NCBI GenBank assembly: GCA_944321445.1
Contig: CALULJ010000001.1
Span: 1-64,000, forward strand
Reading direction: 5' to 3'
Source of the DNA: an uncultured Collinsella sp.
GTDB taxonomy: Bacteria; Actinomycetota; Coriobacteriia; Coriobacteriales; Coriobacteriaceae
DNA: 64,000 bases
Part shown: positions 5,389 to 60,514 of the stretch, in pieces
Layout of the letters: every line of letters starts with the position of its first letter
Numbering within the stretch: the stretch's first letter is position 1
Notes under the pieces: model-generated
Told to the model about the DNA's origin: nothing
Databases searched by the model: none
What the model saw: the letters and a program-made list of their open reading frames with translations, nothing else
Position numbers and translations under genes: made by a program

Positions 5389-5402
5389 ATAGCTCACCTG
5401 CC

Positions 5403-5562
5403 TCTTCCATCCGGCCTGTAACCGTTGGCTCCGGATTCTCACCGGATCGGCCCGCAGGCAGCCCAATGCCTGACGGGCTCGCGGGCTCATCGGTATGCAC
5501 GCGGCCCTGTGCCGCGCCGTACGATTCACCGCCAGTGGGGACTTTCACCCCGCCCTGAAACA
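5403..5562 (-). promoter_or_regulatory. FMN riboswitch (RFN element)
   Basis: On the minus strand the leader shows the conserved RFN blocks in order: AGGGCGGGGTGAAAGTCCCC near 5555-5537, GCCCGCGAGC in the middle, then GATCCGGTGAGAATCCGGAG and GCCGGATGGAAGAGG near the 3' end. These form the FMN-binding multibranch loop. The element ends 14 bases before the ribU start, so it probably acts by hiding the ribosome site, since no intrinsic terminator lies between. FMN should switch the ribU-ecfA-ecfT operon off. Confidence 0.97.
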
Positions 5563-5585
5563 GCAGGTCTATCGTAGCACTGGAG

Positions 5586-8849: not shown

Positions 8850-9018
8850 TGCAGGTTTTTGCGACTATTCGACTCCTCAAAACCGACCCTGTGGCAATCG
8901 CCACCGTCAGCCGCAATCGAGCGCCCGAATCCTGCGGAAATGAGCTCCAAAACCCCCTGAAACATGCCTCTTTCCGACGGCTCCGAATTCAGCAGTCGAA
9001 AAGTTGTAAAAACCTGCA
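8850..9018. repeat. 169-bp element with inverted TGCAGGTTTTT ends
   Basis: The left end TGCAGGTTTTTGCGACTATT (8850-8869, continuing CGACT) is mirrored by 8992-9018, whose complement reads TGCAGGTTTTTACAACTTTT and then CGACT. About 22 of 26 positions match over arms 117 bases apart. It has no convincing reading frame. A similar, shorter element with TGCACGTTTTT ends lies at 18775-18893. It could be a MITE-like insertion or a structured RNA. Confidence 0.75.
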
Positions 9019-14681: not shown

Positions 14682-14690
14682 CCTAGCGGC

Positions 14691-14784
14691 TTCCCCAGGT
14701 GCCGCACCTTGCCCCTCAAACGTTCGGGCATGGCGCGAAGGCCTATGCCCTCCGCTTTCGGGGCAATCTGCGGCACCTGGGGAA
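14691..14784. repeat. Inverted repeat (25-bp arms) after the asparaginase gene
   Basis: Arms 14691-14715 (TTCCCCAGGTGCCGCACCTT and on) and 14760-14784 pair with two mismatches around 44 bases, inside which GGGCAT and ATGCCC can form a second stem. It begins nine bases past the upstream stop. The right arm is also the start of a tandem repeat. Confidence 0.8.
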
Positions 14785-14906
14785 CCCTTGGGTTGCCGTT
14801 GTTGAGGTTTGGGGGTTCAATCGTCGGTCACCGCGCTTAGGCGTGCTCCCTCCTCTTTCGGGCGAATCTCGGGCACCTGGGAAACCCTTGGGTTGCCGTT
14901 GTTGAG
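14741..14906. repeat. Two tandem copies of a ~66-bp unit, period 100 bp
   Basis: Positions 14741-14806 and 14841-14906 match closely. The last 26 bases (ACCCTTGGGTTGCCGTTGTT plus GAG) are identical and CGGCACCTGGGGA corresponds to GGGCACCTGGGAA. Copy two has lost its own left hairpin arm. The unit does not code for a protein. Confidence 0.85.
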
Positions 14907-32534: not shown

Positions 32535-32714
32535 AGCCAAAAAATTGAGTTTTGCGAATTGGCATATGTTTCGTAACAGTTTTTTAGTCCGTTTTCGGAC
32601 TTTTTGATTCATATATCATTGCATTTGCGCAGGATAGGAGAATGTTTTATGCATGGCAGGATTTCCGTCCGCCCGACACATCTATTCACGTGACCAAAAC
32701 TCGATTTTTTGGCT
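32535..32714 (+). repeat. 180-bp inverted-repeat element, copy A
   Basis: The ends AGCCAAAAAATTGAGTTTTG (32535-) and the complement of 32694-32714 (AGCCAAAAAATCGAGTTTTG G) match at 19 of 21. Inside, AGTCCG-TTTT-CGGACT followed by TTTT (32586-32605) looks like an intrinsic terminator. A second copy of nearly equal length, with the same ends and the same internal hairpin, is at 60334-60514. No protein frame fits. It is either a MITE-like insertion or a conserved structured RNA. Confidence 0.8.
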
Positions 32715-47883: not shown

Positions 47884-47955
47884 AAACGATTCGAGCATTT
47901 GTAAGATTTGCTGCCGAATCAGGGGTAGCAAATCTTACAAATGCTCGAATCGTTT
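47884..47955. repeat. Perfect 29-bp inverted repeat between metH and its ghost end
   Basis: Arms AAACGATTCGAGCATTTGTA... (47884-47912) and 47927-47955 are exact complements around 14 bases. The AT-rich arms differ from the GC-rich surroundings. It sits between the intact metH end and the duplicated metH 3' fragment. Confidence 0.95.
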
Positions 47956-59780: not shown

Positions 59781-60151
59781 GGGGGCGACTGGTTTCGACA
59801 CGATAGCTCTGAGAGAGGAAGCAGGCCGTGGTCTCCTCGCCACGTTAAACAGGGGTACCGTCAAAATGAATTGACAAGAATTCTTCTTATGAGCCCCAGC
59901 TGGCTCTCGCTGCTTAGTATTTAATTGCAGCGCGTCGCACTCGGGAGGTTCCCCGACCCGAGCCCGATGTCATTTGAGGGGAATGCTCCCACGCACGTAA
60001 TCGGTATGGCGCGGGCTAAGACTGAACCGGTTGGGACGCCGCGAGCGTGTCGCTGCGCGCAACGCGTCCGAGACTAAATCAGCGACTGAGCCTGGAGATG
60101 CCGATCAGGGGGCTTTCGTGGACCGGAGTTCGATTCTCCGCGCCTCCACCA
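59781..60151 (+). ncRNA. ssrA: Transfer-messenger RNA
   Basis: The 5' end GGGGGCGACTGGTTTCGACA and 3' end GATTCTCCGCGCCTCCACCA form the tRNA-like half (acceptor GGGGGCG with CGCCTCC, encoded CCA). The tag frame ends with GAG CCC CAG CTG GCT CTC GCT GCT TAG. Reading back, the tag is probably DKNSSYEPQLALAA, with resume codon GAC (inferred because a TGA lies two codons earlier). Pseudoknots were not checked. It rescues stalled ribosomes and marks the product for proteolysis. Confidence 0.97.
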
Positions 60152-60160
60152 CAAGGAACG

Positions 60161-60193
60161 AGCAGGTAGACCCACGTGTCTGCCTGCTTTTTT
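60161..60193 (+). terminator. Terminator of tmRNA
   Basis: AGCAGGTAGAC pairs with GTCTGCCTGCT (one mismatch or G-U) and continues into six T residues, ten bases past the tmRNA end. Confidence 0.93.
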
Positions 60194-60209
60194 ATTGCAG
60201 CTGTAAACC

Positions 60210-60227
60210 CGCGGAGAATCGAACTCC
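60210..60227 (-). repeat. Inverted 18-bp copy of the tmRNA T arm
   Basis: CGCGGAGAATCGAACTCC is the exact complement of 18 bases of the tmRNA T arm and lies 17 bases behind its terminator. The same arrangement (terminator, then inverted T-arm piece) follows tRNA-Glu at 33627-33638. Confidence 0.85.
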
Positions 60228-60333
60228 AAACGGAGCGCGGAGCTGTATGGTGCCAACGGGTGTCCGAATTGCATACTCTGGCGACCATAGTGCATAGAGA
60301 ACCCGGCGTTCAGGCCATCCGAGCCGAGCCGGT

Positions 60334-60514
60334 AGCCAAATAATCGAGTTTTGGTAATTACCATCGGTTTTATAACATATTATTAGTCTGAATTCGGACT
60401 TTTTTATACATAACTCTCACTGTTTCCGCAGGTATTTTGATTCGTTTATACATTCGCATCTTTCCCGACACGGCGCGCGCTGTATGCGCAAGACCAAAAC
60501 TCGAGTTTTTGGTT
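60334..60514 (+). repeat. 181-bp inverted-repeat element, copy B
   Basis: The ends AGCCAAATAATCGAGTTTTG G and the complement of 60494-60514 match at 18 of 21. The internal hairpin AGTCTG-AATT-CGGACT with T-run (60385-60405) corresponds to AGTCCG-TTTT-CGGACT in copy A: C to T on the left arm keeps a G-U pair, and the loop has changed freely. The middle (TTTCCGCAGGTA against TTTGCGCAGGATA) is also alignable. Non-coding. Confidence 0.8.

Follow-up and report, generated by a model that had tools for sequence, protein, structure and literature searches.

An 18-copy family of intergenic inverted-repeat elements with kept arms and diverged interiors in an uncultured Collinsella genome

The DNA analysed here (the window; 64,000 nucleotides from an uncultured Collinsella sp.) contains two intergenic elements of about 180 bp that share their ends and differ through much of the sequence between them, which raises the question of what such elements are and at which level, RNA or DNA, their common features have been kept. 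A sequence-only reading of the window had described them as a pair with a conserved terminator hairpin, shaped by selection on folding rather than by recent transposition. Its account of the two copies is correct with respect to the coordinates, the lengths of 180 and 181 bp, the shared ends and the two stem-loops (Table 1), and copy B is 70% identical to copy A across 178 bp (E 9e-12). The count of two is nonetheless an understatement. When G000, the genome to which the window belongs (2,363,450 bases in 84 contigs, with the assembly 97% complete), was queried with copy A, more matches came up, both full and partial, and this genome was found to hold 18 full-length copies, A and B among them, of a family that we refer to as F1.

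The arms of these elements provided the means to delimit the family. Specifically, a single-arm search of G000 with CCAAAACTCGAGTTTTTGG at up to three mismatches gave 30 matches compared with 1 for the reversed control, and the paired-arm pattern GAGTTTTGG-N118-148-CCAAAACTC recovered 16 elements compared with 0 when the reversed control was used. Two further copies with one changed arm base each (copy A and C55) bring the family to 18, all of them intergenic according to crude gene calls. Every arm with three or fewer mismatches in this genome sits in a two-armed element, so that no half-decayed F1 copies are seen; copies with more than three mismatches in both arms escape this search, and fully decayed ones may be missed. 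The absence of further copies from related genomes had been named beforehand as an outcome that would speak against the sequence-only reading, and for F1 in the narrow sense that is what was observed: the arm pair is present in 0 of the 66 other genomes searched in this taxonomic family, a set that includes 44 congeners, which confines F1 to one species among 67 family genomes, while the relatives carry parallel elements with other arms. Matches in Chlamydiae that were considered as F1 proved to be a different repeat with AACCTGAGTTTTGGGTT ends, which is found on many Chlamydiae contigs and on some labelled Verrucomicrobia (L059, L073, L074, L082, L110, L117, L126 and others), and appears to be a separate MITE family with no relation to F1. 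We found no paper on elements of the F1 type in this bacterial group.

In terms of anatomy, F1 is directional, and its orientation is set by the unlike ends GGTTATTCC (end 1) and CTATGCACATGACC (end 2). From left to right, the plan consists of arm 1, box 1 (TATNCAY), often a mid-element TTTCCGCAGG, box 2, box 3 and arm 2, where the two inverted arms are bipartite and 21 bp long (AGMCAA-N6-GAGTTTTGG) and some copies are without one or more of the TATNCAY boxes. The elements measure 163 bp (one copy), 169-172 bp (nine copies) or 180-182 bp (eight copies), with an arm spacing of 146-150 or 157-160 bp in most of them. Boxes 1, 2 and 3 lie at positions 59-61, 103-104 and 137-140 in the 169-172-bp class and at 71-72, 113-115 and 148-150 in the 180-182-bp class. 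As the boxes hold these positions throughout their class, the 10-11-bp difference, close to one helical turn (~10.5 bp), can be placed between arm 1 and box 1, and all length classes have the same distance between box 3 and the right end. The two main classes could also be two subfamilies derived from one indel rather than the product of a helical-phase rule.

Table 1. Positions of the F1 copies in the window, their parts, and the F4 copies
Feature	Position	Strand	Remarks
F1 element copy A, 180 bp	32535..32714	+	between ferredoxin-like gene and bioY
Arm 1 copy A, AGCCAAAAAATTGAGTTTTGC	32535..32555	+	
Terminator-like hairpin copy A, AGTCCG-TTTT-CGGACT then T-run	32586..32601	+	not conserved in F1
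Box 1 copy A, GATTCAT	32606..32612	+	
Mid-element core copy A, TTTGCGCAGGAT	32624..32635	-	minus-strand reading ATCCTGCGCAAA
Box 2 copy A, TATGCAT	32648..32654	+	
Box 3 copy A, TATTCAC	32683..32689	+	adjoins arm 2
Arm 2 copy A, plus-strand sequence CCAAAACTCGATTTTTTGGCT	32694..32714	-	
F1 element copy B, 181 bp	60334..60514	+	downstream of tmRNA gene
Arm 1 copy B, AGCCAAATAATCGAGTTTTGG	60334..60354	+	
Terminator-like hairpin copy B, AGTCTG-AATT-CGGACT then T-run	60385..60400	+	one G-U
Box 1 copy B, TATACAT	60405..60411	+	
Mid-element core copy B, TTTCCGCAGGTA	60423..60434	-	minus-strand reading TACCTGCGGAAA
Box 2 copy B, TATACAT	60447..60453	+	
Box 3 copy B, degenerate TATGCGC	60483..60489	+	by eye, at box-3 place of other copies
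Arm 2 copy B, plus-strand sequence CCAAAACTCGAGTTTTTGGTT	60494..60514	-	
F4 copies	window 8850-9018; contig C1 91809-91980, 93248-93417		contig C1 copies outside window

Conservation within F1 is concentrated in the arms, which average ~84% identity between copies, compared with ~41% for the interiors (global alignment). This extends to the whole family what had been proposed from copies A and B, namely that length and ends are kept over a diverged interior, and it excludes a recent transposition of near-identical copies. The elements are also poorer in G+C than their flanks (41% versus 60%). A core within two mismatches of TTTCCGCAGGAT, a consensus derived from those same F1 copies, is found at the same aligned place in 7 of the 18, and the centres are degenerate in many copies.

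With respect to RNA, one explanation is that F1 copies encode small RNAs or attenuators that end at the internal T-run. The terminator-like hairpin is real in copies A and B, where B retains it by way of a G-U pair, and it is not a property of the family: strictly defined, three copies of the 18 (A, B and C6) have a hairpin followed by a T-run, the stem is still visible in five, it persists in C14 and C31, which lack a full T-run, and another hairpin is present on the opposite strand in C9 and C21. More in line with an RNA, the arms give each F1 element a stable long-range stem, and some elements of relatives form long, near-perfect hairpins capped by a AAAACCGCAGG..CCTGCGGTTTT stem at the apex. 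Nonetheless, the interiors of most copies fold much as shuffled sequence does (z near 0), the two arms are fully complementary in none of the 18 copies, and arm mismatches within copies (48, compared with 58.7 expected from between-copy matching; p 0.02) are only slightly fewer than chance pairing of copies would give. Selection for pairing on one RNA strand should favor GT mismatches over AC; across 124 core-centred elements of many families the arms show 55 GT and 61 AC, with no G-U bias, and as these counts come mostly from non-F1 elements whose copies are related rather than independent, we take them as a leaning against RNA that carries no valid p-value. These comparisons gave no sign of folding or covariation in excess of chance on a single strand, and Rfam returned nothing for the elements at the gathering threshold and nothing credible at a relaxed one. 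The RNA reading of F1 is therefore not supported, the proposed selection on RNA folding finds no support over the 18 copies, and we consider a structured RNA improbable. Elsewhere in the window, Rfam places an FMN riboswitch at 5395-5566 on the minus strand (RF00050, 92 bits).

Elements of parallel design were found in relatives and elsewhere in G000. F2 (arms GGCGCGATTTTTCGGTGC, 122-123 bp, centre TTCCTGCGGC) lies downstream of tmRNA in G015, G058 and G054, which is the locus of copy B, and F3 (arms CTAAGTGAGTAGACTTTT, 122-123 bp, centre GACCTGCGGTTTT) lies at the locus of copy C50 in the main clade of the genus; about 25 genomes carry its arms, each with up to nine per strand. The arm spacing of both is 104-105 bp. 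A general homology of F1 and F2 loci was rejected, as the tmRNA locus alone is clearly shared; F3 lies at the flippase locus, as copy C50 does, and stands there in a single orientation in the eight genomes compared, unlike an inverton. In G015, another core-centred element adjoins bioY, the neighbor of copy A. Given the many relatives compared, all three cases of locus sharing (F1/F2, F1/F3 and bioY/G015) may be due to chance. F4, in the window's own genome, is 169-172 bp long with arms TGCAGGTTTTTNCGACT...GACTC; one copy has the centre AATCCTGCGGAAA, another TTTTCGCAGG. The tmRNA locus has features of its own: for window 59781-60330, relatives such as G044, G015 and G054 have the tmRNA 3' end followed by at least one repeat of that end, as integrated elements leave, and an inverted partial copy of the tmRNA end lies in the window at 60125-60227.

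A near-constant centre, ACCTGCGG, underlies quite different lineage-specific arms in these elements and recurs in no fewer than two further families of the order. Within the genus, a genome can hold as many as 29 occurrences of the 12-mer ACCTGCGGTTTT, compared with 0-2 (either strand) for the reversed control, and most of the occurrences examined there lie within core-centred inverted-arm elements. Searching 695 kb of relatives for CCTGCG within inverted arms gave 16 matches, of which 2 or 3 are other palindromes, compared with 0 for the reversed core, and revealed further arm families. G021 belongs to another family of the order; there, ACCTGCGGTTTT occurs 20 times, and 13 of 13 occurrences examined lie inside inverted arms TTGTGCACGATTTTTCG or variants. 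G131 and G161, from a third family, carry other such elements. At the looser arm threshold used for these genomes, a random-centre control in the same loci found arms at 23 of 260 placements, part of them overlapping the elements. The F1 centre, read on the other strand as AATCCTGCGGAAACG, resembles those of F2 (AATCCTGCGG in some copies), F4 and L311 of G017, the last of which has the core ACCTGCGGAAACGG and arms with GAAAAATCGAG..CTCGATTATTC and forms a link between F1 and the core-centred set. Judging from these sequence resemblances, F1 is likely one branch of a core-centred superfamily. Helix 45 of 16S rRNA contains ACCUGCGG, which we take to be a coincidence. Viral contigs contained no F1 or F3 pair, and 0 of their 80 core matches had arms. 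In G034, two almost identical 164-bp core-centred elements lie among tRNA genes (L350, near 3000 and 3825).

It is quite possible that F1 copies are plain selfish MITEs, with arms that are the TIRs of a transposon now lost or not sampled, and with a distribution explained by past mobility alone. F1 has the inverted terminal arms, short length (163-182 bp), non-coding character and dispersed copies (18) by which MITEs are recognized. Its confinement to one species is consistent with this origin, as are lineage-specific arms, which transposase coevolution would be expected to produce. The flanking genes (secA, ilvE, cysE, bioY and others, named by eye) have no common theme, an outcome that also led us to reject a regulon (gene calls by codon composition and by eye). 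Moreover, the gene junction that holds copy A (bioY) has no element in the near relatives G044, G057 and G017, where the intergenic DNA is not alignable base by base; this is in line with mobility, and indicates that any function is dispensable or replaceable. No clean empty site was found in the sampled orthologues. Other observations are harder to reconcile with plain MITEs. The target-site duplications that the sequence-only reading suggested looking for did not emerge, as none stands out among the 18 flank pairs (best z 3.0 over 72 length/shift tests). No autonomous transposon with F1 ends was seen in G000, where all arms with up to three mismatches belong to short elements, and among the matches listed no F1, F2 or F3 arm lies outside a short element. 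Both arms have stayed intact although the interiors have diverged so far, and a near-constant centre beneath different arms would be unexpected for unrelated MITEs. A small serine recombinase gene (L038, G000 contig C40, 684-1484) adjoins F1 copy C40_20179; as it stands beside only 1 of 18 copies, we claim no link.

A purely mutational origin, in which template switching between quasi-palindrome arms, rather than selection, keeps them alike and the shared centre is coincidental, appears highly improbable to us. Such a process would account for the perfect arms of many sequences and for the equal GT and AC mismatches, and it gains from the high density at which inverted repeats of intergenic type occur (25 in 121.6 kb versus 0 in a shuffle), yet the F1 arms are one sequence over 18 loci and imperfect within copies, and the fixed box spacing and constant core are left unexplained. 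The 25 inverted repeats include a near-perfect 97-bp hairpin with arm AGGGGGTCGGTNNTTTCTACTTG that is present twice on its contig (window 30738-30834 and contig C1 104617-104713). Further inverted repeats of 72-100 bp, which lack the near-constant centre described above, lie in the window at 1151-1238, 14688-14787 and 47884-47955.

The explanation that we prefer, with a probability of about 0.45, is that F1 copies are DNA-level docking sites for a lineage-specific protein or enzyme. This factor would recognize the two inverted bipartite arms, which would face the same side of the DNA at a distance of about 14 or 15 helical turns, with partner proteins bound at the TATNCAY boxes and at the CCTGCGG core in mid-element and about 180 bp wrapped or looped into a single complex. 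The copies probably spread to intergenic sites in a transposition-like manner, and the arms and geometry would have been kept at each locus since then as the DNA between them drifted. We propose maintenance by the host because all copies found combine intact arms with saturated interiors. A protein-binding site that loops DNA, one of the roles put forward by the sequence-only reading, is accordingly plausible, and we infer both the binding and the looping. No binding protein for the F1 arms was identified in this analysis. DnaA titration was considered in view of the similarity of TATNCAY to DnaA boxes and rejected, as the boxes in this genome's own dnaA-dnaN intergenic region differ (CTAATCCACA, TTTTCAACA). 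A wider form of the docking-site explanation, which we regard as doubtful, would extend it to the whole order, with host-maintained intergenic sites that combine the constant centre, fixed helical spacing and arms rewritten in concert as a fast-evolving DNA-binding protein shifts its specificity; F1 would then be the arm set of this species.

Several known repeats invite comparison. ERIC elements are conserved along their whole length, BOX elements are modular through repeated boxB units, and REPs, which are associated with RAYT transposases, form single-strand hairpins of 20-35 nt. In architecture, ERIC and RU-1 (127 bp, enterobacteria) are like F1 in being short, dispersed, MITE-like intergenic inverted-repeat elements of fixed length and many copies (PMC2759123, PMC2229807); here, in contrast to ERIC, one genome contains several arm families, the arms vary between species around a kept core, and F1 interiors are saturated. 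Bacterial MITEs such as RUP and TIMEs resemble F1 as short, non-coding elements with inverted terminal arms and several copies per genome (PMC10969869, PMC3049150, PMC13367494), whereas F1 shows no target-site duplication, has no transposon with matching ends in view, and shares its anatomy but not its interior between copies. The BOX elements of Streptococcus pneumoniae are likewise dispersed small interspersed repeats (PMC3049150); their sequences are unrelated to F1, which varies by one helical turn. REP and REPIN sequences match F1 as species-specific extragenic palindromes in inverted pairs (PMC3116915), and F1 differs from REPs in that its arms form a bipartite motif about 150 bp apart.

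As a rule, the copies of a dispersed intergenic repeat derive from a single sequence, whereas here a framework of paired inverted arms, fixed length and a central core is order-wide and the arms are lineage-specific. If these elements are selfish, they would constitute a MITE superfamily with unusual rules. If the arms are instead bound by an identifiable protein, they would provide a natural series in which to follow a DNA-binding specificity and dozens of genomic sites as they change together, and would raise a tractable question, namely what organizes intergenic DNA in these bacteria.
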